DNA from: Oligoflexales bacterium
GTDB taxonomy: Bacteria; Bdellovibrionota_B; Oligoflexia; Oligoflexales; RGVZ01
Length of the DNA stretch: 41,214 nt
Direction: 5' to 3'
Assembly: GCA_947468665.1 (NCBI GenBank)
Contig: CANILH010000022.1
Span: 1-41,214 of the forward strand
Shown piece after piece: positions 2,684 to 30,294 of the stretch (positions are counted from its first letter, which is position 1; each line of letters opens with the position of its first letter). Under the pieces are notes generated by a model that worked only from the letters and a program-made list of their open reading frames with translations, was not told the DNA's origin and did no database searches. The translations under genes and the position numbers were made by a program.

Positions 2684-3064
2684 GCACGAAGGCTGACCAG
2701 GTGAAAGTGGTGTATATACCGGGTGTCTCAGCCATGCCGAGACCGCCGATACCTGTTGCGTCTCACCTGTCATTCAGACCAGTCATTGAGTTTGTTGCCG
2801 GTTTCAGGAATTACTTCCAGGATCCGTGCCATACGACCCTTGTCCGACGTCACAAAAATACCAGATCTCGGCGTCAAAATTGGCGTATTCAGTCGCTCAA
2901 GCGAAACCAACGGTGATCGGGTCTATCGATTTGATCATAACGAGTTGGCCTCGATAATGCCAGCCGTTGGGCTTCTTAAACGTTTAGAAGCGGCGAGTCA
3001 TCGCGATGCCCGCAAGCCATTCGCGAAATCAAAAATAAACAAATCCGACGGATTTTATGACTAG
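2680..3064 (+). pseudogene. Possible small gene after fliD, apparently frameshifted
   Basis: Two overlapping plus-strand frames read like one protein of about 128 residues. The first half runs from TTG 2680 (or GTG 2701) and includes VKVVYIPGVSAMPRPPIPV; the second half, in the +1 frame, contains VKIGVFSRSSETNGDRVYRF and ELASIMPAVGLLKRLEAA and ends at 3064. The join would lie at the run of five A around 2866-2870, where one extra A explains the change of frame. The reading overlaps the fliD stop by four bases, as in coupled genes, and ends overlapping the convergent cyclase gene by four bases. No family is recognised. It may be a real gene with a sequencing or slippage error, a decayed gene, or non-coding sequence. 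Confidence 0.35.
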
Positions 3065-4338
3065 CAATCGAGTCGTGGCCATATAAAGCACTGAGTTTCG
3101 TCAGCGGGCGCGCCCTCTGCCGCGGAATCCTCAATTGCCCAGCGGGTGCAACTCGCCTTTCCACCATAAATCAGCGACGCGAAGTTGGCGTTCATAGCCA
3201 GACGATCGCTATTGCTATACTTCTGCCGCAGGCCTTTGGCTACTTCCTGGAGTTTTCGCGCGAACGCGGGCGGGCGGCCAAACGCGGTGGCCTTTGCCAC
3301 CCCTTCCTGGCCAAAAATGCCAACAGACGCAAGACCCGCGGTCAGTCCAATATCAATGCCGGGAGGGTAACCATGCGACTCGAAGTATTTTTGACGATAT
3401 TCGAGAACCTCAGCCGCGAATTCAAACGAGCTTTTAACCAGATTCGCGTCGTGGGCCGTGTCATTGGCGAATGCCACAACAAATAATTCGTCGGCAATCC
3501 AGTCAACGAAAAATCTACCGTCGGGGAATTTCCGGTTAAGCATTTTGACAATTTCCGTGTAGTAGGAAACTAGACCTTGCCCGAGCTCGGCCGTGCCGAT
3601 TGACTCGGTTAATTTTTGGAAGCCTCTCCAGTCGGAACAGATGCAGACACAAAATCTCGTCGTGGGCGCGAATACCTCGTCGCTACTGCGTTCAGTCCTC
3701 GCCGCCTCCATCAGTACCTGGCGGGGGATGTAACGGGACTGCTCCCGGTAACGGTTTGTCGCGGCGGCTTTTACCATTCTCTGTGTGTAGATTCGGTAGT
3801 TTTGCCCCACCCCGAGAACCGTGAATGTCAGGATATAACCAAGGGTCGGGTCCGGGTAGTGGCTCAGAATGGGTAACATTGTCCCCAACGCGACCACGGC
3901 GACGATGTTGTGCCAACGGGATCTTAAGGGCAGGTAAGCGCTGCCCAGAAGAATCATAACAATCCATGTGCCGGCGTAAGGGACGGACGTATTTTTGTTG
4001 TAAACCTCGAATGCGCCCCCGACCGCCCACGCTAGCAAACCGGTCATTAGAGACCAAAATACGGTATATTGCAAAACTTTGAGTCGCGGTGACCTGATAA
4101 GGATTACCAAGGCGAGAATAGCCTGAGCAACGTGAAATGTTCCGGTGGCTATCGCTTCTGGCAGGGCGATGACCCCGATTTGTTTCATGACCAGGACAGG
4201 AATTGGACCTAAGAGAGACAAAAAAAGGTAAGTCCGGCCGACGTTTATTTCTCTCAACTCAAGTATTGCCAGGGCGTAGTCCCGCTCCTCATCGCTTTCA
4301 AATGTCGGCTCGCGCCACAAAATATCACCAATAATCAT
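3061..4338 (-). CDS. Membrane protein with divergent class III nucleotide cyclase domain (paralogue 1)
   Basis: 425 residues. Start chosen at ATG 4338, where GGAGG lies about eight bases upstream; the open frame extends further but has no better start. Residues 9-20 (REPTFESDEERD) are shared with the upstream paralogue, then six hydrophobic segments (about 33-50, 62-82, 90-112, 122-138, 145-160, 165-180), a SRYIPRQVL linker (201-209), and a cyclase homology domain from about 225. Both metal-binding Asp positions are kept (Asp236 in SDWRGF, Asp283 in WIADELF). The purine-recognition pair, Lys and Asp/Thr in adenylate cyclases, appears swapped to Asp279 and Lys349, and the transition-state Asn is replaced (Ala358). 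The product nucleotide is therefore uncertain; activity may be altered or lost. It lies 20 bases downstream of its paralogue, presumably in one transcript. Confidence 0.85.
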   Translation of the reverse strand: MIIGDILWREPTFESDEERDYALAILELREINVGRTYLFLSLLGPIPVLVMKQIGVIALPEAIATGTFHVAQAILALVILIRSPRLKVLQYTVFWSLMTGLLAWAVGGAFEVYNKNTSVPYAGTWIVMILLGSAYLPLRSRWHNIVAVVALGTMLPILSHYPDPTLGYILTFTVLGVGQNYRIYTQRMVKAAATNRYREQSRYIPRQVLMEAARTERSSDEVFAPTTRFCVCICSDWRGFQKLTESIGTAELGQGLVSYYTEIVKMLNRKFPDGRFFVDWIADELFVVAFANDTAHDANLVKSSFEFAAEVLEYRQKYFESHGYPPGIDIGLTAGLASVGIFGQEGVAKATAFGRPPAFARKLQEVAKGLRQKYSNSDRLAMNANFASLIYGGKASCTRWAIEDSAAEGAPADETQCFIWPRLDC

Positions 4339-4358
4339 GGGCGGAACCTCCTTTCCTC

Positions 4359-5699
4359 TCAGGCAGCTGGAGTGTTTTGTGGCGTGGTCGTTGACGCGCT
4401 GGTTGACTCGGATCGTCTTTCCGGAAGCAGCGCGGAGAGACGGGGCCAAAAATATATTTTCTCGTTGGAGATGTCTTTAGTGCCTTTGCTGATTTCAGCC
4501 GAGACTCGGGACAAATCAATGCCACCACTTGCGAGTACATGGGCGAACTCATCTGTCATGACGATGCGATTGTAACTGCCGTGTTCACGTCGAAGCTTGT
4601 GGCATATGGAGTGCATGCGTCTTGCCAGTCCGGGAGCGGATCCAAACGCTGTCGCCTTCGCGATGCCGCCAGTGCCGAAAATCCCGACCGCGGCGATGCC
4701 GTCTGACATGCCGATGTCGATGCCGCTGGAAATTCGGTTCTTGCTGACAAACCCCTGGTGGTGCCTGAATATTTTGCGCGCGGCCTCAAACCCCTCGTTC
4801 ATCAAATGTACATTGCGATATTGGTCCTCAGCGAAGATCACAACGAACAACTCGTCAGCGATCCAGTCGATAAAGAAATTACCCTCCGGGAATTGCTCAA
4901 TGAGGATTTTCATAATCTGACCGTAGTAATCGGTCATGCGGACGCCAAGGGAAATCATAGTCTCGTCCGAGATTAGTGATTTGAAATGACTCCAGTCAGA
5001 GCAGATGCATACGCAGTATCTGTCAGACGGGCTGAATACATCGGTGATCTTTACATCGGCCAGGGCGGCTTTTGTAAGGACCTGCCGTGGTATGTATCTG
5101 GACTTTTCGCGGAAAGCGTTGATCGCGTCGCGTTTAACCATGCGGTGAGTGATGATCTGGATGTTTTGCGCGGCTACAGTTCCAATGGTCGTCAGGACGG
5201 CGGCGAGAATGGGTTTTTCGGAATACATGCATGCCCATAAAAAGCTCGGAATTATAATAACGCTGAGTTTTTGATGCTGCCAGGAACGCATCGGGAAGAA
5301 CAGCATTCCGAAAACGATGGATAAAATCCATGTCCGGATCAGAGCGGGGCTGATCAGGCCTCCAGTAGCCTCAATCATAGCGCTGATTGTCCAAAACACC
5401 TGCGCCATGACCAGCATATAATAAGTGCTTAGGACAAGAGTCTTAGTGCGGACCTTTGATAGGAGCAGAAATAACGCCGTCAGTGCCTGGATGATCCCGT
5501 ACGCTGTAATGACCTTGTAAGCGGGATCGGTGATTTTGCCGGAGAGACCAAGCAGAAGTACCGGAATCCACGCGAACACGCGAAACATTAGAAATATGCG
5601 CGCGATAACGAGCTCGCGCCGCTCCAGAATCGCGACGACATAGTCGCGTTCTCCGTCGCTTTGAAATGTTGGTTCATAAAGAATCCGGAAGTATTTCAT
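4359..5699 (-). CDS. Membrane protein with divergent class III nucleotide cyclase domain (paralogue 2)
   Basis: 446 residues, same architecture as its downstream neighbour: N-terminal EPTFQSDGERDY (9-20), six hydrophobic helices between about 31 and 182, the identical SRYIPRQVL linker (200-208), and a C-terminal cyclase domain. Metal Asp residues are present (Asp235 in SDWSHF, Asp282 in WIADELF). Asp278 replaces the adenine-contacting Lys and IAKATAFG places a Lys where Asp/Thr is usual, exactly as in the paralogue. A Ser/Thr/Pro-rich tail follows residue 425. The start ATG 5699 has GGGGAG before it. The two genes probably arose by tandem duplication. Sharing the swap argues that it is a conserved property rather than random decay. 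They could form a heterodimer, because class III active sites sit at the dimer interface. Confidence 0.85.
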   Translation of the reverse strand: MKYFRILYEPTFQSDGERDYVVAILERRELVIARIFLMFRVFAWIPVLLLGLSGKITDPAYKVITAYGIIQALTALFLLLSKVRTKTLVLSTYYMLVMAQVFWTISAMIEATGGLISPALIRTWILSIVFGMLFFPMRSWQHQKLSVIIIPSFLWACMYSEKPILAAVLTTIGTVAAQNIQIITHRMVKRDAINAFREKSRYIPRQVLTKAALADVKITDVFSPSDRYCVCICSDWSHFKSLISDETMISLGVRMTDYYGQIMKILIEQFPEGNFFIDWIADELFVVIFAEDQYRNVHLMNEGFEAARKIFRHHQGFVSKNRISSGIDIGMSDGIAAVGIFGTGGIAKATAFGSAPGLARRMHSICHKLRREHGSYNRIVMTDEFAHVLASGGIDLSRVSAEISKGTKDISNEKIYFWPRLSALLPERRSESTSASTTTPQNTPAA

Positions 5700-5916: not shown

Positions 5917-6633
5917 TCAGGGCATATCAAACCACAAGAGACTCACGGCGTCCTTTGCCTTGATCGTGACCGACGACTCGCCAGACACCGCGACGCCATC
6001 GCCAGCCGCGCACTGAACGGGTGATTGTCCTGATGTTTGAATTTCCATTTTTCCCTCGGCGATCTGAAGCCAGCCTTTGCGATCTGGTTTCAGCGATATC
6101 GTGATCGTTTGTCCCGCGGCCAGATCCCCATGCCATAAAGTCAAATCCTGGCCAATGGCGCAACTACTGTGACGACCATCCGGCGAGGCCAGGAGTCGCA
6201 TTTGGTTTGGCTGTGTGGAAAGTGCCCGCCAGTTGATTTGATCCCAGGACGGTGCCCGGTCTTTCTCGGACGGCATGATCCAGATCTGGAGCATGTGAGT
6301 TGGTGTTTTTGTGTCAGGATTAAACTCTGAGTGCGTGATCCCGCTGCCGGCAGTCATGCGCTGGATCTCTCCCGGGCGCAGAATGCCAGTGTTGCCGAGG
6401 CTATCCTGATGCCTGAGCGCGCCACTGATGACGAAACTTATGATTTCCATGTCGCGGTGCTGGTGCATGCCAAATCCCATGCCGGGAGCGATGATGTCCT
6501 CGTTGATAACCCGGAGAACACTCCAATGCATGTGAGCGGGATCCCGGTATTGATCAAATGAGAACGTAAACCAACTCTGAAGCCAGTCCATCTGACCTCG
6601 CCCGCGGTCATCTGACTTACGAAGTTTTAGCAT
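5917..6633 (-). CDS. Pirin family protein (bicupin, YhhW-like)
   Basis: 238 residues, normal length for bacterial pirins. The N-terminal cupin shows the metal ligands: MHQHRDMEI gives two His, and GSGITHSEFN gives the third His and the Glu. Bacterial pirins of the YhhW/YhaK type are cytoplasmic bicupins; some have quercetin 2,3-dioxygenase activity and others act as redox-responsive partners of enzymes or regulators, so the biological role cannot be fixed here. The ATG at 6633 lies 20 bases after the stop of the REC-histidine kinase on the same strand, suggesting co-transcription. No odd features apart from that pairing. Confidence 0.9.
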   Translation of the reverse strand: MLKLRKSDDRGRGQMDWLQSWFTFSFDQYRDPAHMHWSVLRVINEDIIAPGMGFGMHQHRDMEIISFVISGALRHQDSLGNTGILRPGEIQRMTAGSGITHSEFNPDTKTPTHMLQIWIMPSEKDRAPSWDQINWRALSTQPNQMRLLASPDGRHSSCAIGQDLTLWHGDLAAGQTITISLKPDRKGWLQIAEGKMEIQTSGQSPVQCAAGDGVAVSGESSVTIKAKDAVSLLWFDMP

Positions 6634-6653: not shown

Positions 6654-7856
6654 TCAGTCAATGAGATAATCGCTGATATTAAAAGAGTCTTTTACCGGCG
6701 CGGCAGAGTGTTTCAGCTCAATAAAGGCCGTAGCGCCCATGCCTGCTCCCTTGCTCTCAAGCGCGATGCGACCACCCATGGCGCACGCGAGTCTTGAGCA
6801 AAGCCAGAGGCCAAGCCCTTTGCCGCCGCGAATGGCCTTCGTGGTTTTAAATGCCTCGAAGTCAGTTCTGACTTCTTGTTTAATCAGGCCGATTCCGTTG
6901 TCTTCGACGCGGATTTGAATTTTGTCTTTAGCGCCCTCTGTGACGCGAATGGATATGCGGCCTTGTGTCGCGAGACCTTTTTCATTGATTGCGTCCAACG
7001 CATTCAGGAAAAAATTGACAAGGATTTGTTTGACCCGCGTAGGATCCGCCAGCACACATTGGCTGGCATCACCTCGCGTGAACTCAAGCGCGACGCTCCC
7101 GATTTTTAGGCGCGTAATATTCACGACCTCATCAATCAACGCGTTGACGTCGCATGGTGTTGTGCGAATTTGCTCGGCGCTGATGTGAGTGTTGAGATCC
7201 CGGCTGATTTTTGTCAGCAGTGCGGTCATCTGTGATAACGAGGAAAGCGCCTGGTGCCCTGTGGTTCCTGGTTTCATATCCTGTCCGCGCTCTGCCGCGG
7301 CCAGAGCCTGATCTCCCGTGATTCTTATCAGAGTCACAATATTTCGGATCTCGTGGTTGGCCGCCGCGAGAACGCGCCCGGTCATGGCCATGTCCTGTGA
7401 CGACTCAAGAGTATCTCGCAGTGCGCGAAATTGTTTGTAATGCGTCAGGGCGTTACGAATCCGCAGAATAAGTTCTTGGTTATTGATGGGCCGCACAATA
7501 TAATCAACCGCTCCAAGCGATAATCCTTTGATGCGATTTTCGTCTTCAGGCAGCGCTGCCGTGATGAGAAGCACAGGAATGTGGTCCTGGTGGTTCTCGG
7601 GATGACGCATCCACTCAAGTAGATCAAAGCCCGTCTCAACCGGCATGCTGATATCAGAAAGTACAAGGTCTACGGACGCGGTAGGATTGAGGAGTATTTT
7701 CTTGGATTCAGCGACAGATGCCGCCGTGCGCACGATAAATGACGCGGACTCAAGGATAGCCCGCAACAGCGGAAGATTGTCCTCGTTGTCATCGGCAACA
7801 AGGACCGTATGCCGTGCCTCCGCAGAAAACGATATTTCGGAACCTGACGCCACCAT
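6654..7856 (-). CDS. Soluble hybrid: receiver domain followed by histidine kinase
   Basis: 400 residues with no membrane segment. Residues about 16-135 are a receiver domain: acidic pair Asp22/Asp23, phospho-acceptor Asp68 in VLSDISMP, Thr99. The conserved Lys of the KP motif is Arg122 (IVRPIN). A short linker leads to an H-box ANHEIRN (His168), and the ATPase domain shows the N-box NFFLNALDAI, DNGIGL and GGKGLGLWL. REC-kinase proteins of this order usually take phosphate from another kinase and feed it into a second signalling step. The Lys-to-Arg change may alter dephosphorylation kinetics or output switching. It is the first gene of a pair with the pirin. No cognate output regulator is adjacent. 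Confidence 0.9.
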   Translation of the reverse strand: MVASGSEISFSAEARHTVLVADDNEDNLPLLRAILESASFIVRTAASVAESKKILLNPTASVDLVLSDISMPVETGFDLLEWMRHPENHQDHIPVLLITAALPEDENRIKGLSLGAVDYIVRPINNQELILRIRNALTHYKQFRALRDTLESSQDMAMTGRVLAAANHEIRNIVTLIRITGDQALAAAERGQDMKPGTTGHQALSSLSQMTALLTKISRDLNTHISAEQIRTTPCDVNALIDEVVNITRLKIGSVALEFTRGDASQCVLADPTRVKQILVNFFLNALDAINEKGLATQGRISIRVTEGAKDKIQIRVEDNGIGLIKQEVRTDFEAFKTTKAIRGGKGLGLWLCSRLACAMGGRIALESKGAGMGATAFIELKHSAAPVKDSFNISDYLID

Positions 7857-9208: not shown

Positions 9209-10399
9209 TTAAATCGGGATCGAGACTTTAAAAATAGTTCCACAGGGGAGGTTAGGCTCAATGCTTATCGCTCCCCTCATTGACTCTACAAGGGTCTTGA
9301 CGAGTGCCAGCCCGAGTCCGCTGCCGGGCTTTTTCGCCGTTTCGGCCTGTATCCGGTAAAATTCCACGAATACTTTCTCATGCTGGTTTTCGGGTATCCC
9401 CGGTCCGGTGTCACTGACCACAAAGGTGACCACACTCTCTGCCTGATTGAAATCAAGACTGACCTTGCCGTCATCGGTAAATTTACAGGCGTTGCTGACG
9501 ATGTTCAAAATGACTTGACGAAGTTTTGAGAAGTCCATTGAGATGACTGGGCTTGGTTTTTCGCTGTAGCGCCGATCAACAGTTACCGGCTTGCCAGCCA
9601 AAAGCCCCTCGGCGCTGGTCGCCATATCATCCATCAATGCTTTGATGGTGCCTGTGGTTTGCTGGGACTGCCACCCGCCACTGCCGACTCTTCCGATCTC
9701 AATAAGGGCATTGATCATTCCAAGGAGGTTCTCAGCGTTTCGGTGTAGCACCTGAAGATGCTGTCTTGTCTGGGGAGAGATTTCCTTCGAGGTATCCAGC
9801 ACGAGATCCGTGTAGCCCAGGATAGACGACAAGGGAGTTCTCAGCTCATGGGACACCGTCGCGAGAAATAAGCTTTTGGCCTTGCGGGCACTTTCCGCCG
9901 CCTGCATCTGTTCGCGGAGTTTACCGGTATAAGCGTCAACGTAAGCGTCAACGGCCAAAAGCTGGTCGTATTTAATAAGGTCACCAATGGCTCTTTCGAT
10001 GCGGCGCCAGTCTCGCAGGGGTTTGTCCAGGTAATGGGGTTCCAGTTGATCGAATAGTAACCTCTCCAGATGGCCGAACATCCCGAGATACCACATTAAC
10101 GGCAGCCCGACGCGGTCATGGGTGAGACCAACCTGAATGCGACGGGTGTCATAACCGGTATCGTAATTGCCCGAGAAGAGTGAGGTGAGGTAGACCTTGA
10201 ATGTTTGCTTCAGGCGGTCCGTGGTGGTGTGCCTGGATATGATATCTCTGAGGGGAGCGTGCTTGGTCATGTGGGCGTAAAACGCGTCAATGACCTGGTC
10301 AAGGTGGGGGCTGATAAGGATTCCAGCCTCACGAACCAGGCGAACGTCGTCCTCGTTGAAGCCAATCAGGCTCATTCGCTCTTGCGGTGAGTGGTTCAA
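9209..10399 (-). CDS. Globin-coupled sensor histidine kinase
   Basis: 396 residues, cytoplasmic. The N-terminal 155 residues form a sensor globin (protoglobin-type): Tyr41 in DAFYAHM as likely distal residue and His94 in VGLTHDRVGLPLMWYLG as proximal haem ligand. A short linker leads to the dimerisation domain with H-box SHELRTPL (His184) and an ATPase domain with NIVSNACKF, DTGPGIP and GSGLGLAL. Globin-coupled sensors bind haem and respond to O2 or other gases; here the output is phosphotransfer. The start is a TTG at 10399 with GAGGGGG at good distance; ATG 10375 is an alternative that loses eight residues. No response regulator is adjacent. Confidence 0.9.
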   Translation of the reverse strand: MNHSPQERMSLIGFNEDDVRLVREAGILISPHLDQVIDAFYAHMTKHAPLRDIISRHTTTDRLKQTFKVYLTSLFSGNYDTGYDTRRIQVGLTHDRVGLPLMWYLGMFGHLERLLFDQLEPHYLDKPLRDWRRIERAIGDLIKYDQLLAVDAYVDAYTGKLREQMQAAESARKAKSLFLATVSHELRTPLSSILGYTDLVLDTSKEISPQTRQHLQVLHRNAENLLGMINALIEIGRVGSGGWQSQQTTGTIKALMDDMATSAEGLLAGKPVTVDRRYSEKPSPVISMDFSKLRQVILNIVSNACKFTDDGKVSLDFNQAESVVTFVVSDTGPGIPENQHEKVFVEFYRIQAETAKKPGSGLGLALVKTLVESMRGAISIEPNLPCGTIFKVSIPI

Positions 10400-12598: not shown

Positions 12599-12644
12599 GT
12601 CTCGGTAGTACCGGGAGAAAAGTCTAATAAACCAGGTGGCTGGA

Positions 12645-15062
12645 ATGAGCGCCGAACAGCAAAATCACAACATAGATATAGATGGCAGCGGACAGCGGCA
12701 TTGGCTGAAGGCTTACGGCCTTCGGGTGAGTACGACCGTCATGGTCGCCGTCGCCTGGGCCGCTATTTTTCTTGTCGTCGCTTTCCTTGACAGCGGATCA
12801 TACATAGATGCAACCCTTGCGGACCCCTTGAACTTTAAAATCCGGGATGCCCTGGGGCGCGGGCCGAGCCAGGATAAGCGCCTGAAAATTTACGCGATCG
12901 ATGACCGTACTTTCGCCATGCTTGGTACCCCAATGCCGGGTATTGAGCTGTGGGCTGACATACTTGATTCTATCGCTTCAAAAAAACCAAAGTTGATCGC
13001 CGTTGACGCCATGTTCAGCGCGCGTCCTGAAGACATGTCCGACCGGGCCCGGCGGATTCTCACGAAGGTGCAAAACTCCGGAGTGCCGGTTGTCACGGGA
13101 GCCTTTGTCTCAAAGGACGAGCTGCAGTTTAAGCACCCGCTGCTCGTTGAGGGCCCAAGATACGAGTTGGGCTCCTATCTTCCCTCTGGCCTGGGGAATC
13201 TTCCCAAAGCGCGCCCTGAGGTTCCCCCATGGCCTGAACGAATTGGCTGGCACGCTTATGGGCCGACCGTGGCATTGCAGTCCACATTCAGAACGGTCGG
13301 CCACTTTCAACTGTTTGATCAAAATAAGGCAGAGCCATTTATCATGGTGGGACACGACAGGGTCATTCCGCACATTTCGATGTACGCGGCCGACTCGCTT
13401 CAGTTTCGTGAGCGGAATCTTATTGTCAATGACCATCGTGTGGCAATGGATCGTCACGGGGCCATACCTGTTAATTTTATAAATAAGTCGCGTTTGAACA
13501 TCCACTCAATGATGCAGATGATTGTTGACGCGAAGGATGGGTATATGGCGGAAACGGTGGAGGCGGGAGACGTTGTGTTAATTCTGCCTCTTTACTTCAC
13601 CGGTAACGTCGATCTTCGCCCGAGTCCCTACGGTTGGATCCCTGGTGGCCTTTATCTTGCGGCTATGTTTAACAGCGTACTCACCGGCGAGTGGCTGCAG
13701 CCTGTTCTTGAGGAAAACGTCCTGATCATCTTGCTGTCATTGGGAAGCGCGTTTGCGGCCTACGCGCTGTCGTCTGGATATTTCTGGCTTGTGTGGCTGA
13801 TGACCATGGTTGGTTTTTTCGGTGTCGCGCAGGCATTTTTCGCTTATGGCGGACTGGTTGTTCCCTACGTTCTGCCTCTCATCGCGGGTACGTTTGCCGG
13901 CGCCCATATCTTCGCGCTCAAAGTGCGCAGCGCCGAGATGAAGGCAGGCGCTCTTCGCGCCGCTCTTGATGGTGCTGTGTCTCCAGCCCAAATGGAGGCT
14001 ATTTCCCGAAGGCCAGACCAGATAAACCTGGAGCCCCGGGAGCGTATTGTGACTCTGATGTTTATCGATATAGTGGGCTTCTCGTTGTCATCTGAGAACA
14101 TGCTGCCGAGACTCGCGTTTAACAGTCTGAAACATCTTATGGCTATAATGTCTGACGTGATTCACTCCTACGATGGAGTTATCGATAAGACCCTCGGTGA
14201 CGGGCTTTTGTGCTATTTCGGCTACAGGTTTGACACCGATTTGACCGACGCGAATCACCCTGAGAAGGCCCTGCGTTGCGCTATGGCGATTCAGGATCTG
14301 ATGCTTACGGATGGTCGCGAGGCTGTCAGGCTGGGATCACCTATTTATCCACTGCGTATCGGTATTAATACCGCGTCCTGCTATCTGGGCGACTTGGGAT
14401 CCGGTAAACGAATCGAGTTTACTGTGGTGGGTAACGGCGTGAACTATGCCAAACGTCTTGAGGCGGCGTGTCCTATGTATAATGTCATGATCGGCTCAAC
14501 GACATTTGACCTGGTTAAGGGAATAGACTTTGGAAATGATGTGTTTACCCGCAAAATGATTAAGATAAAGCATCACAAGGATCTTATGGACGCATATGAG
14601 GTTAACGCCCTCAAGTCCAGGCAGTCCGAACGTGAAGAGGTCATGGACGCGTTCCGTCTGAGCAATAGTCTGCACCGCGATTCTGACCGAATGACTGTCA
14701 AAGACTCAGAGAGCATCGTCATCAAATGCCCTTACGGCAACGGGCATATTTTGAATTTCAATGGCACAGGTATCAGCGCATTGTTCAAAACGGAGATCTC
14801 ACGGGGCAGCTCTATTGAGATAAGTTTTGAGAGTCGGGTACCTGGGTTGGCTGAGGCACTCAAAAAAATTGGTATGGAAAAAATCGAGGGCGAGGTTCGC
14901 TGGAGCTATACGACGTCATCGGGTGTCGCTCACGGAATTCTGTTCCGTGGGATTTCAGTCGGGCAGCAGACGGAGTTTGCGAGACTTATGACGGAGTTTG
15001 CCTTTATTGAGTCGAGTAACGCTGGAGGTGAAGATGATGGTGATTCATCTCAGTCAGCGTAG
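12645..15062 (+). CDS. CHASE2-type adenylate cyclase with C-terminal PilZ-like domain
   Basis: 805 residues from ATG 12645 (AGGTGG at six bases); GTG 12636 is an alternative. Order: one N-terminal membrane helix (about 27-48), a periplasmic CHASE2 sensor region (about 60-330), three membrane helices (about 355-430), then a class III cyclase domain. The catalytic set looks complete: metal Asp in LMFIDIVGFS, Lys and Asp in DKTLGDGLL, Glu in IEFTVVGNGVNYAKRLEAA with the following Asn and Arg, which favours ATP as substrate. After about residue 680 a beta-rich stretch (VIKCPYGNGHILNFNGTGIS to GVAHGILFRGIS) resembles PilZ, but the RxxxR and DxSxxG ligand motifs are degenerate, so c-di-GMP binding is doubtful. 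It overlaps the next lipoprotein gene by 29 bases, implying coupling. Confidence 0.9.
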   Translation: MSAEQQNHNIDIDGSGQRHWLKAYGLRVSTTVMVAVAWAAIFLVVAFLDSGSYIDATLADPLNFKIRDALGRGPSQDKRLKIYAIDDRTFAMLGTPMPGIELWADILDSIASKKPKLIAVDAMFSARPEDMSDRARRILTKVQNSGVPVVTGAFVSKDELQFKHPLLVEGPRYELGSYLPSGLGNLPKARPEVPPWPERIGWHAYGPTVALQSTFRTVGHFQLFDQNKAEPFIMVGHDRVIPHISMYAADSLQFRERNLIVNDHRVAMDRHGAIPVNFINKSRLNIHSMMQMIVDAKDGYMAETVEAGDVVLILPLYFTGNVDLRPSPYGWIPGGLYLAAMFNSVLTGEWLQPVLEENVLIILLSLGSAFAAYALSSGYFWLVWLMTMVGFFGVAQAFFAYGGLVVPYVLPLIAGTFAGAHIFALKVRSAEMKAGALRAALDGAVSPAQMEAISRRPDQINLEPRERIVTLMFIDIVGFSLSSENMLPRLAFNSLKHLMAIMSDVIHSYDGVIDKTLGDGLLCYFGYRFDTDLTDANHPEKALRCAMAIQDLMLTDGREAVRLGSPIYPLRIGINTASCYLGDLGSGKRIEFTVVGNGVNYAKRLEAACPMYNVMIGSTTFDLVKGIDFGNDVFTRKMIKIKHHKDLMDAYEVNALKSRQSEREEVMDAFRLSNSLHRDSDRMTVKDSESIVIKCPYGNGHILNFNGTGISALFKTEISRGSSIEISFESRVPGLAEALKKIGMEKIEGEVRWSYTTSSGVAHGILFRGISVGQQTEFARLMTEFAFIESSNAGGEDDGDSSQSA

Positions 15063-15670: not shown

Positions 15671-16464
15671 ATGATGCGCAGTTTTTTGAAGTTTTTTGTG
15701 GTGATTGGATTAGTGATCGCACCTTTTTGTGTGGAGGCCGCGTCGGTTAAGACATCAGTAATTGAATACAAAATTGGTTCAGAAACATTCGAGGGACTGA
15801 TGACGTCTCCGGTGGTTTTATCAAAGGTAAAAATGCCTTCTATTCTCCTCGTTCACAACTGGATGGGTGTCACTGACGAGACAAAACATCAGGCCGAGCG
15901 TATCGCGGAGCAGGGCTATAACGTTCTCTCGGTGGATGTTTATGGCAAAGGTATCAGGCCAAATCTCCCCAGGAAGCAGGTCAGCTGGCGGGCAAATATA
16001 AGTCTGACCGTAAACGTCTTCGGGAGCGTCTTGTGGGTGCTCTTAAAAAGCTAACGTCTATGGACGGTGTTGACGCTGGTAAAATCATCGCAGCTGGATA
16101 CTGCTTTGGCGGGACAAGTGTTATTGAACTAGCCCGGTCTGGGGCGGACGTCAAGGGTGTCGTTAGTTTTCACGGCGGCCTCGATAGCCCAACGCCTACC
16201 GATGGAGCAAAAATAAAATCCAAAGTCCTGATCCTCAGCGGCGCTGATGATCCGTTCCAAAAGGCGGAAGACTTGGCGGCATTTGAAAAGGAAATGCGCG
16301 ACAACAAAATCGACTGGCAGATGGTCAGCTTCGGCGGCGCGGTTCACAGCTTCACTGATAAGGGTGCCGGGTCTGATAACAGTAAGGGCGCCGCATATAA
16401 CGCGGCCGCGGACCGGCGGTCTTTTGAGATGTTCAAGCTCTTCGCCCGGGAAAACTTTAAATGA
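15671..16464 (+). pseudogene. Secreted dienelactone hydrolase family protein, frameshifted
   Basis: Two frames together give one dienelactone hydrolase-like alpha/beta hydrolase of about 264 residues with an N-terminal signal peptide (MMRSFLKFFVVIGLVIAPF). The first frame runs to VDVYGKGIRPNLP; sense continues in the next frame with QEAGQLAGKYKSDRKRLRER, then GALKKLTSMDGVD. The break lies near 15957-15972 and is explained by loss of one base after GIRP, restoring a KSPQEAG-type sequence. Catalytic features survive: Cys in AGYCFGG, Asp in GADDPF, His in AVHSFTD. The second part could start at 16033 but would lack the nucleophile-side Glu region. Either a recent inactivating mutation or a sequencing error. 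It lies between an envelope operon and a lipase. Confidence 0.85.
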
Positions 16465-21904: not shown

Positions 21905-23422
21905 TTGGCAGTTTTGAGGCGGATATTGCTTCTTTGCGTCATGTGGTGTCTGGCGGAGGGCGTTGTCGTCGCGAACCCCATGGCCCTCAGGCGTTCGGTG
22001 TTTCGCATTGAGACTACCGGCCAGGACCGCAATTTTGTCAACCCATGGCGGCTCCGCTCTCCCGATATGTTTTCCGGGACCGGATTTTATATTGGCGATG
22101 GTCGGATTTTGACCAATGCCCATGTTGTGGCCAACGCCAGCTCGATTACGATTCAGCGGGACGGTGATTCCCGGCATATGCCGGCGTTTGTGCAATTCAT
22201 CGGTCACGACGTGGATCTTGCCATTCTTGGCGTGGCGGATCCAAACTACCTTAAAAATATCGAACCCTTAGTATTAGGCTCTGTGCCGCACCTTCGGTCT
22301 CCGGTGACGACTGTTGGTTACCCCATGGGCGGCGATCAGGTTTCCATGACCGACGGTGTGGTTAACCGCATCAGTTACCGGACATATGTACATTCGGACG
22401 CCGACGATCATCTTTTGGTGCAGGTGGACTCAGCTATCAACCCGGGCAATAGCGGTGGGCCTGTGTTTCAGGGGCGCAATGTCATCGGAGTTGCCTTTCA
22501 AGCCCTGACCCGGGTTCAGGGCGCGGGATTTATTATTCCGGTTCCTGTGGTGCAGAGGTTCTTGACAGATTGTGAGGACGGCAAATATGACGGTGTTCCT
22601 GGCTGGGGGGTTGTGACACAGGACTTTGTTTTAAATAACCCGTCCTCTGCCAGTTTCTATCAGGTTCCGGCCGGGGAACGCCGCGGTGTGGTTGTCTCCA
22701 GGGTGTTCTCATGGTCGCCCGCTGTCGGAGTGATTCAACGTGGAGATGTTTTGATGTCGATTTCCGGCAAAGATATCGGAGTTGACGGCAAAGTGGCATT
22801 TGAGGGTGAGCGTGTTGACTTTGAGGCGCTGTATGATCTCCGTCTTATTGGCGACAGGGTTCGCTTCGAACTGCTTCGGGAGGGGGTGCTTCGGGAGGTA
22901 ACGCTGCAGACCGGTCATGGCAAGCCGCACCAATATTCTGGTCTGATCTACTCAAAGCGGCCAAGGTTTACCGTATTCAGCGGCATCGTTTTCACAGCGC
23001 TGACACGCTCAGTCATGGAGCTTTGGGGTGACTCGTGGGAAAAACGCGCTCCGTTGCTGCTGCGATATCTTCTGCAAAATCCTTTTGACGTGCCAAGCGT
23101 CGAAGATCGCGAGGAACTTGTGATTGTGAGTGACATCCTCACTAACAAGGCAAATAGTTTTCTTCAGGTTCAAAGTCCTGTCGTTGATAAGGTAAATGGT
23201 AAGACCGTAACATCCGTCAAAATGCTGCACGAGACGCTTATGTCCCTGAAGGAAGAGACGCTACGGATTGATTTTATGTTTGATGAGGATCCCTGGATTC
23301 TTGATGCCGCAGCTCTTAAGGCCGCTCACGAGGAGACCAATCGCCGCTACGGTGTCGCCCCCGCGTTCTGGCTGGAGCCATATTCTGTTGATGGCGCGAT
23401 TACGAAAGGGGGCGTAAAATGA
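21905..23422 (+). CDS. HtrA/Deg-like serine protease with PDZ domain
   Basis: 505 residues. The start is probably TTG 21905, with GGGAGGG about eight bases upstream, followed by a signal peptide (about 5-23). The trypsin-like domain has the triad His73 (LTNAHVV), Asp104 (DVDLAILG) and Ser183 (NPGNSGGPVF). A PDZ domain follows (about 240-320: GVVVSRVFSWSPA, then VIQRGDVLMSISGKDIG), and a further C-terminal region (about 330-490) resembles the second PDZ-like part of plant and bacterial Deg proteases. It should act in the periplasm on misfolded proteins. It overlaps the next gene by four bases (ATGA); that gene encodes a paralogue that has lost the triad. The pair precedes secDF. Confidence 0.88.
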   Translation: MAVLRRILLLCVMWCLAEGVVVANPMALRRSVFRIETTGQDRNFVNPWRLRSPDMFSGTGFYIGDGRILTNAHVVANASSITIQRDGDSRHMPAFVQFIGHDVDLAILGVADPNYLKNIEPLVLGSVPHLRSPVTTVGYPMGGDQVSMTDGVVNRISYRTYVHSDADDHLLVQVDSAINPGNSGGPVFQGRNVIGVAFQALTRVQGAGFIIPVPVVQRFLTDCEDGKYDGVPGWGVVTQDFVLNNPSSASFYQVPAGERRGVVVSRVFSWSPAVGVIQRGDVLMSISGKDIGVDGKVAFEGERVDFEALYDLRLIGDRVRFELLREGVLREVTLQTGHGKPHQYSGLIYSKRPRFTVFSGIVFTALTRSVMELWGDSWEKRAPLLLRYLLQNPFDVPSVEDREELVIVSDILTNKANSFLQVQSPVVDKVNGKTVTSVKMLHETLMSLKEETLRIDFMFDEDPWILDAAALKAAHEETNRRYGVAPAFWLEPYSVDGAITKGGVK

Positions 23423-24912
23423 CGTCCCGTTTTATATTCTTAATTCCAGTGTTTCTTTTGCTGGTCTCGGCCCAGGCTGTTTTCGCGGCGGAGGAAGCCC
23501 GTGACGCGTCGGAGTTTGAGCGAAGTATTCTGCATTTGACAGTGACCAGGTCAGCTCCCGATCCAGAGTCGCCATGGGCCCTGCAAAACACCGATTTGAG
23601 TGGTTATGCGGGAGTCGTGGTCGGTGAGAACCGCGTGCTGACGCTTGCGTCACTGGTATCCCGGGCTGTCTATATTCAAGCGCAGAAAGTTGATGATGTT
23701 GAGAAGATACCCATGCGTGTTGTTTTCGCGGACTATGAGGCGAATCTCGCGGTGCTGGCTCCTGTTGACGGCAGACATCTGACCGGTGTGAAAATCATGC
23801 CAGTTGGTCCTGATCTCCCCGTGGGGAGTGATGTGTGGCTGGTGGCGATTGAGAGCGAGCGCCAGTTGCAGCGAGTTTCGCTCCGGGCTATGGAAGTGGG
23901 TATTCGCGAGGCCGTGATCGGCGGCATGACAGTTCCTATTTATAGTCTTTCCGGGCAATCCAGATCAGCCTGCAAAGCTGATCCAATTATTCGCAGGGGT
24001 GTCCTGGTGGGTATTTGTGTCGGAATATCCGAGTCACAGCCACAAGCGTTGACGTCCGGGGTGATCAGTCACTTTCTTGGCGATAAGTTGTCGGCGAACT
24101 TATATCGGGGCTTCGGATCATTTGGTGTGACGCTTTCTCCGGTTCGGAGTCCTTGGCACCGTAGGCTTCTTGGGATTTCCGCGGGTAAGGGCGCCCTCCG
24201 CGTCTCAGGAGTTAATGAGACAAGTCCTTTTACCGACTGCTTAAAAGTTGACGATATTGTCACTGGTCTTGATCAGGTGGCCGTTGATCATCGTGGGTTC
24301 TATCAGCATCCTCAATGGGGCGCGGTTCCTATCCGCCACTATGTGATCGCGAAGTACGCGGGTGAGCACATGACGTTCCACTATACGCGCGCGGGTAAAT
24401 TCCTTAACTGCTCCCGTGTTTTGCGCCGTTTTTCCAGCATGGACAACACGGTGCCGGGCCCAACCAATGAAGGTGGTGTGCCTCACTTGATTTTCGGTGG
24501 CTTGATGTTTCAGGAATTGAGCGCTGATTTTCTGTCTGCGTTTGGCCGGGATTGGCCACGGAACTCCCCGCCGGCTTTGGCGTTTATTTATAATTATATG
24601 AACCGTCCGAGTCTTGCCCGCCGTCGAAATCTTGTGCTGGCAAGTGTTTTGGGAGATGAGTTCAATGCCGGTTACGAGAAATTAAGCAATCTTGTTCTCA
24701 AGGCGGTTAATGGTCGTCAGGCGTCCTCCATGGAGGAGCTCAAAATTCATTTGAGGTTGCCGGGAATACAGCGGGATGGAATTGAGTACGCGGTGTTTGA
24801 TTTCATGAACGGGAGCCTGGTAGCTTTGCCGTATAAAGGTTTGCCTGAGGCGCAACGTCGCATTGCCAAAGCTTATGCGGTGACTGATGCCTCAAGTTTC
24901 TTCACCAGGTAA
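23419..24912 (+). CDS. Catalytically inactive paralogue of the HtrA-like protease
   Basis: 497 residues with a signal peptide (about 1-24) and the same overall layout as the upstream protease, but none of the triad is kept: the TNAHVV position reads TLASLV (Ser78 for His), DLAILG reads NLAVLA (Asn109 for Asp), and the nucleophile loop reads SACKADPII (Lys186 region for Ser). The PDZ-like region survives (VSGVNETSPFTDCLKVDDIV, about 256-275). Four Cys residues may form disulfides (for example Cys185, Cys200). The 4-base overlap with the active protease implies coupled translation in similar amounts, as for a complex. It could be a regulatory or scaffolding subunit or a substrate adaptor. The lack of frameshifts and full length argue it is a maintained pseudoenzyme, not a pseudogene. 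Confidence 0.8.
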   Translation: MTSRFIFLIPVFLLLVSAQAVFAAEEARDASEFERSILHLTVTRSAPDPESPWALQNTDLSGYAGVVVGENRVLTLASLVSRAVYIQAQKVDDVEKIPMRVVFADYEANLAVLAPVDGRHLTGVKIMPVGPDLPVGSDVWLVAIESERQLQRVSLRAMEVGIREAVIGGMTVPIYSLSGQSRSACKADPIIRRGVLVGICVGISESQPQALTSGVISHFLGDKLSANLYRGFGSFGVTLSPVRSPWHRRLLGISAGKGALRVSGVNETSPFTDCLKVDDIVTGLDQVAVDHRGFYQHPQWGAVPIRHYVIAKYAGEHMTFHYTRAGKFLNCSRVLRRFSSMDNTVPGPTNEGGVPHLIFGGLMFQELSADFLSAFGRDWPRNSPPALAFIYNYMNRPSLARRRNLVLASVLGDEFNAGYEKLSNLVLKAVNGRQASSMEELKIHLRLPGIQRDGIEYAVFDFMNGSLVALPYKGLPEAQRRIAKAYAVTDASSFFTR

Positions 24913-27831: not shown

Positions 27832-30294
27832 TCAGGCGGACTTCCTGTTATGGGAGTCCGTCAAATATATTGACCTGTATTCCTGCCAGCGGTTTTTGAG
27901 TGACTGGTTCCATGCGTCGGAATTTCCCGGCGTTTTGAGGATCGCGTCGAGGTATTGAATGATCTCGTCACTCATTTGTACCGGAATTCCAGTTGTCTGA
28001 GCCACGAAGGCAAATGCGTCCACCGCGAGGCTCAGAGACTCAGCGCCCGCTTTAGCAAGCAGCATGGCTTCGGTGATTTTAACCAGTATTTTTGTGTCCG
28101 GGTTTAATTCGTCGCTCACGCCTCTGCGAATGAGGGAGACCATAGTGTCAATTAACTTCCCCTGTACAAGTGATGTTTTCATAATGCTCTTGTTTCGCAG
28201 GGCATCACCGAGAATTTCTCTTACGGTTTTCGCGTCCTCCGCTGTATGCCTTTGGTAGTCAAGATTCCCCAGGAGAACCCAGGCCTCCTCGAAGCGGGCG
28301 CTGTGGGGGTCCAGGGCGTTGGCCCGAAGGTTCGTTAGATCTCTGAGCTGAGTTTTATATAGTTGCGCCTGATTGAGAATCTGACTTGGGTAGCCTATCG
28401 TTGTTACCGCGGTTCTCAGGGTTTTCAGGATTAACTCAAAGCCGGGGGCTTTCTGTGATGGGCCCGCGTTCTGAGCAGCTTCCGACAGGTAGATTTTCAG
28501 GAGTAGCTTGAGCGCCTGGTCTTTTTCTTTAAAACCGCGCCACGTATAACTCGCGATGGATTCAATGATGCGAAGTTTTTCTGAGGGTGTTTTTGAGTTT
28601 TGGTTCTGCAGAGACATGATGCTAAGAAGGCGCTGTGCCTCGGCGCCGGGCTCAAAGTCGATGACTTTCGCCCGTGTATCATCGAGGCCATAGTAGCGTT
28701 GAAGGCGTGGGATCAGATGCTCAAATTTGATTGAGAACACCAATAGATCGTTCTCGGATGTCACCTTGATCGTATGCGGCTCCATAATCGTAGTCAGGTT
28801 CGGGGCTTCCTGGAGTAGCCTGTCATGGGCATCTTTGCCAACCCAGATAAAGTTGCCGATGCTGTGAGTGCGGCGCATAAAATCCAGGATGGCGATTCGC
28901 GCCTCAGGGCTGATTGGCTCAAGATGGATGCCGTAGCGGGAAGATTTCTGTGTGCTGACGATGCTTTGATCAACCCAGTTGTAGTCAAAGTGAAAGAACC
29001 ACTGGGTTTTTGTGAGAATCGGCAAAAGACTTTCCAGATTGATGATATCGGCGAGGCCCTGATTTACAAGCGGCAGCAAGGACACGAGTCCTGAGATTCG
29101 ACGCTCAACAAGGGCGCCGGCGTCGAGATAGAGGGTCGCGCAGAGGTTGAGCGCGTCAACGCATGGACGGATGCTGTGCTCCGGATCAATCGACCCGAGT
29201 ATTTTCTGCGATATGGAATTAACCGACAGTGTTTTGTCTTTCATGATCTGGTTGACGAGTGCGGCGATCTCCTCATTGCGGATGCGGGCTAGCGTTGCAG
29301 GGATTTTTTTGCCGATGGTGGATTCTGGATCATGATCGATGGTAAATGTTGTGGTTCTTAGTCCAACAGTGGCCGCCCAGTTGTCCTTGCCCTGATTGTG
29401 ACGGGTCAGGAGATTTCTCGCGCTCTGAACCGTTAATCTCGAGAATGCCTGCAGCCTCTCCTGGTCAGTGCCAACCTGGTCCAGGCGAGTCCACGCGTCC
29501 ACCAGAGAGGGCAGATAAAGAAACGGCGCGCTGATGGCTAACACCAGTGGGTAGGTTGTCTCTTGATATTTGATGATGGCCGCGATTGAGAGGATGCTTC
29601 CCATTTGTATTAAGGCTGTCAGAAATGAAGATGTCCATTCTGAGACTCGTTTGTTCTCATTGTCAATCCTCAGGCGTATGCTGTTCATAACGCTGTTTTG
29701 GTCTAGTCGAAACCGTGGATGCAGAGCGAACCATCCCAAAGTAAAGCTAAGGCCAACAATGTGGACCGCTGCCTGCCAGACCCCACAGGCAATGAGGAGG
29801 TTCTCAGTTGGCCAAAAATTTCGGACAGGGTATGCCAGGAACCCAAAGCCCGCTACCGCTGCGGTCGCGATCCATGGCACTTTGGCAGAAAATTTCGAGG
29901 GTATTTTGATTCCGTTGATAGCGATTGAGAAGCTTAGCCACGTTGCCCAGGACTGCAACGTGACGGTTGCGGTATAGAATACCGGGGTGTCTATCCTATG
30001 AGCGTTGTAGAGCAAAACGGCCATAATCTGCACTAGCGATAGCTCTGAAATCAGGGATCTTGGATCGCTGAACGGGTTCATTTTCTTCATGAACAGGCCG
30101 TGGTGAAACGCCGCGTAAAATGACGCTGGAATAGCAGTGCCAAAAGCGAGGGCGATAATTAAGGCGATTGACTCGTTTACGGGCGAGGGCAGGATTGCCG
30201 CGTTGTTTATGACGACATATGTGACAGAAACACTGGCGCAGATAGCCACAAGCAAAGTTATAATCGAGGGTGAGAGCAGCTCCTTCGCGCGCAT
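27832..30294 (-). CDS. Unknown membrane protein with large C-terminal helical region
   Basis: 820 residues. The start at ATG 30294 has AAAGGAG at eight bases, and this Shine-Dalgarno overlaps the stop codon of the upstream histidine kinase (30299), so the two are translationally coupled. About seven hydrophobic helices lie in residues 8-275 (for example ITLLVAICASVSVTYVVI and LIIALAFGTAIPASFYAAF). The remaining 540 residues are soluble, rich in Leu and Lys, and largely alpha-helical in appearance; NPDTKILVKITEAMLLAKAG and similar stretches near the C-terminus hint at helical repeats. No catalytic motif or family is recognised. Coupling to a PAS kinase suggests a sensor or effector in the same signalling unit. 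Confidence 0.85.
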   Translation of the reverse strand: MRAKELLSPSIITLLVAICASVSVTYVVINNAAILPSPVNESIALIIALAFGTAIPASFYAAFHHGLFMKKMNPFSDPRSLISELSLVQIMAVLLYNAHRIDTPVFYTATVTLQSWATWLSFSIAINGIKIPSKFSAKVPWIATAAVAGFGFLAYPVRNFWPTENLLIACGVWQAAVHIVGLSFTLGWFALHPRFRLDQNSVMNSIRLRIDNENKRVSEWTSSFLTALIQMGSILSIAAIIKYQETTYPLVLAISAPFLYLPSLVDAWTRLDQVGTDQERLQAFSRLTVQSARNLLTRHNQGKDNWAATVGLRTTTFTIDHDPESTIGKKIPATLARIRNEEIAALVNQIMKDKTLSVNSISQKILGSIDPEHSIRPCVDALNLCATLYLDAGALVERRISGLVSLLPLVNQGLADIINLESLLPILTKTQWFFHFDYNWVDQSIVSTQKSSRYGIHLEPISPEARIAILDFMRRTHSIGNFIWVGKDAHDRLLQEAPNLTTIMEPHTIKVTSENDLLVFSIKFEHLIPRLQRYYGLDDTRAKVIDFEPGAEAQRLLSIMSLQNQNSKTPSEKLRIIESIASYTWRGFKEKDQALKLLLKIYLSEAAQNAGPSQKAPGFELILKTLRTAVTTIGYPSQILNQAQLYKTQLRDLTNLRANALDPHSARFEEAWVLLGNLDYQRHTAEDAKTVREILGDALRNKSIMKTSLVQGKLIDTMVSLIRRGVSDELNPDTKILVKITEAMLLAKAGAESLSLAVDAFAFVAQTTGIPVQMSDEIIQYLDAILKTPGNSDAWNQSLKNRWQEYRSIYLTDSHNRKSA
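27837..27860 (+). terminator. Terminator-like hairpin between convergent secDF and the 820-residue gene
   Basis: CGGACTTCC (27837-27845) and GGGAGTCCG (27852-27860) pair with one G-T wobble around a six-base loop. It begins 12 bases after the secDF stop and lies inside the last codons of the convergent gene. There is no T-run after it, so it may need Rho or act only as a 3'-end stabiliser. Confidence 0.35.

Follow-up and report, generated by a model that had tools for sequence, protein, structure and literature searches.

Tandem membrane proteins with divergent class III cyclase domains and a putative guanylyl-cyclase-like pocket in an Oligoflexales bacterium

Membrane architecture of the gene pair

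Class III nucleotidyl cyclases built on a six-helix membrane domain are represented by Rv1625c/Cya of Mycobacterium tuberculosis and the mammalian membrane adenylyl cyclases (PDB 7yzk, 6r3q and 8sl4), each half of which consists of six helices, the sixth extended, and one class III domain. Among guanylyl cyclases, Cya2 of Synechocystis (2w01), CYG12 (3et6) and GC-A share the class III fold, a basic residue five positions before a conserved glycine and a small residue at the position that partners the purine-reading residue. Here we describe two paralogous genes, A and B, whose products appear to combine elements of both groups. They lie in a stretch of 41,214 nucleotides from an Oligoflexales bacterium (hereafter the window; contig CANILH010000022.1, one of the 95 contigs of the 2.6-Mb draft genome GCA_947468665.1). 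Both are on the minus strand: B (P0001, 4359..5699, 446 amino acids) is the upstream gene and is separated by 20 bases from A (P0002, 3061..4338, 425 amino acids), whose ATG at 4338 is preceded by a AAAGGAGG ribosome site. The two open reading frames reported in a preliminary description of the sequence are thus present (B 5699-4359, A 4338-3061). Their products are 38% identical end to end, and another contig (C3:76541-77758) encodes a third paralogue that shares 27% identity with B. We propose, with a probability of roughly 0.4, that A and B constitute a dimeric membrane class III cyclase whose guanylyl-cyclase-like pocket would convert GTP to cyclic GMP (cGMP).

The AlphaFold models of B and A (predicted local distance difference test scores of 78 and 85.6, respectively) both begin at the N terminus with six helices of membrane length, the sixth of which is long and continues into a helical linker that is followed by the cyclase domain. 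The preliminary description had assigned six membrane helices to each protein, and these are seen in both models; hydropathy alone, in a simple scan, gave five clear peaks in A and in B, and six in the other family members scanned. In Foldseek searches, both proteins matched AC5, AC8, AC9 and Rv1625c over their whole length (>420 columns), including a full-length match to 7yzk, with E values for B of 1e-9 to 1e-8 against AC5/AC9 and Rv1625c. The global template modelling (TM) scores of these whole-length matches were low and the root-mean-square deviations large, so the orientation of the domains probably differs from that in the known membrane cyclases. The cyclase domain by itself matched CyaB, CyaC and Cya2 with a probability of 1.00 and TM scores, normalised by target, of about 0.7-0.8. 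Profile-profile comparison with 25 ordinary class III domains (hhalign) gave a probability of 98.8% and an E value of 8.7e-17. Single-sequence links to the PDB were weak for A (E 0.08-0.4), and the corresponding search with B returned no relevant match. Taken from the models and the profile alignment, the predicted fold of A and B is that of the class III nucleotidyl cyclases. Neither protein had a match of meaningful score in Pfam or NCBIfam, and PF00211 matched neither at the Pfam cut-off.

Compared with Rv1625c and the mammalian enzymes, to which they are about 10-15% identical, A and B lack the adenine-contacting Lys and the transition-state Asn; moreover, the mammalian proteins are single fused chains, whereas two genes are present here. 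The membrane domain is also of another type than that of the receptor guanylyl cyclases. The segment SRYIPRQVL (residues 200-208 of B; 5076..5102, minus strand), which lies after the sixth helix and before the cyclase domain, is identical in A and B, as had been claimed. It was rejected as a motif of the wider family, in which the Pro alone is conserved.

Metal, base-reading and transition-state residues

Positions were assigned from the profile-profile alignment to the 25 ordinary class III domains and from alignments to CyaC, CyaB and Cya2; all codons given here are on the minus strand. The two Asp residues that bind metal are retained, the first as D235 in B (motif CSDW; 4995..4997) and D236 in A (3631..3633), the second as D282 in B (4854..4856) and D283 in A (3490..3492). 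The position four residues before the second metal ligand, occupied by Lys in adenylyl cyclases and by Glu in guanylyl cyclases, is Asp in both proteins (D278 of B within DWIADE, 4866..4868; D279 of A, 3502..3504). The transition-state Asn is replaced by Gly in B (G357) and by Ala in A (A358). In these three respects the preliminary description was accurate. It did not mention that the family alignment places Lys at the transition-state Arg position in A (K362, 3253..3255), while B retains the Arg (R361, 4617..4619).

The same description had placed the Lys of the KATAFG motif at the position of the Asp/Thr purine partner, which would make the pocket a charge-swapped version of the adenylyl cyclase pair. 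This assignment does not hold. The partner position is Asp in mammalian adenylyl cyclases and Thr in CyaC, and in ungapped alignments an ordinary Thr of both proteins (T350 of B, 4650..4652, three residues before the conserved Gly353; T351 of A, 3286..3288) stands opposite the partner Thr of CyaC and CyaB. The Lys lies two residues upstream of this Thr and five before the conserved glycine (K348 of B, 4656..4658; K349 of A, 3292..3294). Because the stretch is ungapped and moving it by two residues would put the conserved Gly and Arg out of register, we reject Lys as the partner; the claimed charge swap is, on these alignments, an off-by-two slip, a correction that matters in its own right.

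The position five before the glycine is informative about the type of pocket. It is Arg in GC-A (KMPRYCLFG) and CYG12 (MPRFCLFG), Lys in Cya2 (RTKYGVVG), as in A and B, and Gln in both halves of AC5; among 25 ordinary cyclases of related bacteria it is E, S, N, D, C, A or T and never basic (0/25), and 24 of these 25 carry Lys at the adenine position. In guanylyl cyclases, Glu replaces that Lys and the partner is C, S, T, H, A or G (PMC4215837), the Glu contact being dominant and the partner residue variable (PMC7384201; PMC4215837). An attempted switch of Rv1625c to GTP altered exactly these three sites of the pocket, by the triple change K296E/F363R/D365C, and the crystal structure of the F363R variant shows a contact between Arg363 and the Lys296 carbonyl (PMC4174876); the Asp and Lys of A and B may likewise lie close together. 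The triad thus reads E/R/C in GC-A and D/K/T in the window pair. Because the guanylyl cyclases compared are basic at the middle position, ordinary cyclases are not, and the Rv1625c switch addressed the same positions, D/K/T reads as a guanylyl-cyclase-like acid/basic/small-polar triad and not as a novel charge swap. The preliminary description was right that the Asp and Lys appear unusual among adenylyl cyclases. Its suggestion of an unusual substrate survives in part, since a specificity other than for ATP is plausible, but not the cause it gave, as the partner is a normal Thr.

In Cya2, the acid at the adenine-Lys position is Glu (PMC4215837). The window pair differs from Cya2, CYG12 and GC-A in having Asp instead of Glu there (N, S or T in some relatives), in lacking the transition-state Asn, and in the Trp residues that follow the first metal Asp and stand between D278 and D282.

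The family, its tandem pairs and a possible reaction scheme

Searches of 58 genomes of the bacterium's own phylum group, of 369 genomes of a second Bdellovibrionota set, of 245 of a Marinimicrobia set and of GTDB contigs yielded about 20 family members, mostly from Bdellovibrionota and including a gene in a genome of the same genus (G004). In a phylogenetic tree, 16 relatives formed a clade with 100/100 support apart from the ordinary cyclases of the same genomes. Pfam missed 11 of 13 members at E 0.01; the remaining reach was that of PF00211, which matched 2 of the 13 (best E 1.3e-5). The distinct subfamily that the preliminary description had suspected is borne out by this clade and by the Pfam result. 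None of the libraries searched contained the family, which is unannotated in Pfam and NCBIfam; the corrected reading of its pocket points to a type already known.

Residues were counted over 20 members, the twentieth (L086) being read by eye. The metal-binding Asp residues are kept in 18 (first) and 19 (second) of them. The adenine position is D in 13, N in 3, S in 2, T in 1 and E in 1, hence acidic in 14/20 and never Lys, and the position five before the glycine is basic in 19/20 (Lys in 18, Arg in 1). The partner Thr is present in 17, the transition-state Arg in 16 and the transition-state Asn in none. W236, W279 and, usually, a Glu after D282 (B numbering) are further signatures. The preliminary description had named conservation of the Asp/Lys pair among orthologues as a check: the Lys is nearly constant, but a constant Asp is confined to the subclade of the window pair, where the DWIADE form occurs in 7/7, and elsewhere N, S, T or E can stand in its place. 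Asp and Lys are real signatures of the family and read as guanylyl-cyclase-like.

Tandem copies occur in three genomes, namely that of the window (G000), G013 (14-base overlap) and G005 (one base shared). In the tree, the two copies of the window and the two of G013 are each sisters (95/90 and 97/96) and fall in different subclades, so the two pairs are, on the tree, separate tandem duplications. In G013, the first copy keeps both metal Asp residues and has lost the Lys, the Thr (to Ser) and the Arg; the second retains Lys, Thr and Arg but is without the first metal Asp. The sole complete site predicted for this pair is therefore composite, with metals from the first copy and base-reading residues from the second, which is the division of labour between C1 and C2 in the adenylyl cyclases of animals (PMC4174876). 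In the window pair, the metals of A and the base-reading residues of B make up a full consensus site, and the reverse site has Lys for Arg; K362 of A alone breaks the symmetry. The complementary loss in G013 is suggestive of pairing of the A/B type, and this single case is also a mild argument that selection acts on a catalytic site. In the third pair (L045, 4782-7405 of G005:C148), the first copy lacks both metal Asp residues (K and H instead) and the second lacks the Thr and the Arg. The G005 pair is possibly a pair of pseudo-cyclases, and some family members may be inactive.

Based on these observations, we favour a scheme in which (i) each protein would amount to one half of an enzyme, its six membrane helices leading through a helical linker to a single cyclase domain, as in Rv1625c and in each half of the mammalian adenylyl cyclases; (ii) the half-units would dimerise head to tail, most likely A with B, because the genes are adjacent and co-oriented; (iii) one protomer would supply the two metal-binding Asp residues and the other the base-reading and phosphate-contacting residues; (iv) the resulting pocket would lack an adenine-reading Lys and present an acid, a basic residue and a Thr where guanylyl cyclases have their Glu/Arg/Cys triad, which leads us to predict GTP as substrate and cGMP as product; and (v) the 12 membrane helices of an A:B dimer would act as a sensor controlling cyclic nucleotide synthesis. 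The missing Asn is no strong argument against activity, since Ma1120 naturally lacks it and is inactivated when it is put back (PMC4215837), and the bacterial guanylate cyclase XC_0250 of Xanthomonas is active on GTP without both Asn and Arg (PMC3770947). XC_0250 resembles A and B in that its class III domain, also bacterial, has other residues at transition-state positions, but it is a fusion containing tetratricopeptide repeats, has no six-helix membrane domain and has both residues substituted.

Several observations weigh against a GTP-converting A:B dimer. Both proteins carry Asp, which is shorter than Glu, at the guanine-reading position, where none of the guanylyl cyclases compared has Asp, and 6/20 relatives have N, S or T and hence no acid there. 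In Rv1625c, F363R cut the activity about 3000-fold (PMC4174876). Neither composite site of the G005 pair is intact; most relatives are single genes, so that members of the family need not be paired; and complementary lesions occur in one clear pair, for which a rough lesion count puts chance at several percent. A and B could instead be pseudo-cyclases, that is, membrane receptors that bind nucleotide or merely dimerise and signal through another partner without catalysis. The absence of the Asn throughout the family, the Lys for Arg in A, the G005 pair devoid of most catalytic residues, and a drift strong enough to escape Pfam all fit this explanation; we nevertheless consider it unlikely, as metal ligands kept in nearly all members are hard to explain without metal-dependent nucleoside triphosphate (NTP) chemistry or NTP binding, and as loss of the Asn in Ma1120, and of Asn and Arg in XC_0250, is compatible with activity. 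We are equally doubtful that the enzyme is active with another or a relaxed base preference, using ATP despite the missing Lys, both ATP and GTP, or a pyrimidine NTP as does Pycsar PycC. The variability of the position four before the second metal Asp (D/N/S/T/E) speaks for it, as do the altered residue at this position in PycC (R142 of EaPycC, four before metal Asp D146 in the numbering of PMC11224242) and the K101E/D157T double mutant of Ma1120, which still preferred ATP (PMC4215837); the basic residue five before the glycine, by contrast, fits guanylyl cyclases. PycC shares with A and B the class III fold and changes among the residues that recognise the base, but the window pair has a six-helix membrane domain and no adjoining cyclic-nucleotide-gated effector gene (PycTM or PycTIR), and the PycC structures 7R65 and 6YII were not within the top 50 Foldseek matches of A or B. 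Identity with Pycsar was rejected: the PADLOC PycC model matches A and B weakly (2e-8 and 2.5e-6), as against values down to 8e-37 for ordinary cyclases of the same genomes.

Concerning the pairing, A and B might be independent homodimers that arose by duplication without functional partnership, which would be compatible with either view of the substrate. Both proteins retain all metal residues and most relatives are solitary, yet the genes are tightly co-oriented, and a second, independent tandem pair carries complementary lesions that would leave either homodimer dead; on balance this seems possible but rather unlikely. A stronger version of the pairing model, in which the family includes split, obligately heterodimeric membrane guanylyl cyclases, with the 12-helix C1/C2 layout spread over two genes, a guanylyl cyclase pocket and at least two origins by tandem duplication and complementary loss, strikes us as distinctly improbable. 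The reading originally envisaged, in which Asp and Lys form a genuine charge-swapped purine pair and the substrate is novel, is very improbable indeed: the two residues are family-specific and their equivalents adjacent in the Rv1625c-F363R crystal (PMC4174876), but the Thr at the partner position and the Gly and Arg anchors oppose it, and among relatives the Asp varies while the Lys stays.

To our knowledge, characterised guanylyl cyclases from bacteria are few. If A and B act as the guanylyl cyclase proposed above, a membrane-anchored group with this type of triad, which escapes Pfam and NCBIfam, would suggest that Bdellovibrionota use cGMP as a signal, a use of which no description was found in the literature searched. 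Should the tandem copies pair, they would offer a bacterial view of the transition from a homodimer with two active sites to a heterodimer with one, the step behind the animal membrane adenylyl cyclases.

Gene neighbourhood and other features of the window

Upstream of the pair and on the same strand lie a pirin gene (5917-6633, minus strand) and a response-regulator/kinase gene (6654-7856, minus strand); beyond the other end of the pair, a FliD gene runs in the opposite direction. None of these neighbours contains a cyclic-nucleotide-monophosphate-binding domain, and the two cyclic-nucleotide-binding proteins found in the genome are encoded on contigs other than that of the pair. A conserved operon partner was rejected, as the neighbours, where read, change from relative to relative. 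So was a phage origin, with no relatives in IMG/VR, and a plasmid origin, the plasmid matches being class III domains of the ordinary kind from Rhizobium, which retain the Asn and the Thr.

The genome also encodes ordinary class III cyclases, among them a CHASE2-class III protein in the window (12636-15062, plus strand) with the usual Lys/Thr/Asn/Arg set. The PADLOC model PDLC00734 (PycC) matches such ordinary cyclases in 54 of the 58 genomes at E <1e-15; because these score far better than A and B, the match is unspecific, and PADLOC PycC matches alone should not be taken as a basis for calling Pycsar.

Elsewhere in the window, two DegP/HtrA-like proteins are encoded in tandem with a 4-base overlap (21905-23422 and 23419-24912, both plus strand) and are 22% identical. 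The first carries AHVV and GNSGGP motifs in a trypsin domain; the second can be aligned with it along its length, but because these motifs and a trypsin match in Pfam are absent, it looks protease-dead. An 820-residue open reading frame (27832-30294, minus strand) had no Pfam match at E 0.001. A dienelactone hydrolase gene (15671-16464, plus strand) is split over two overlapping frames, 15671-16054 covering profile positions 10-61 and 16033-16464 positions 84-210, which suggests a frameshift or an assembly error. Finally, a protoglobin-histidine kinase fusion (9209-10399, minus strand) is likely a sensor of oxygen or another gas.

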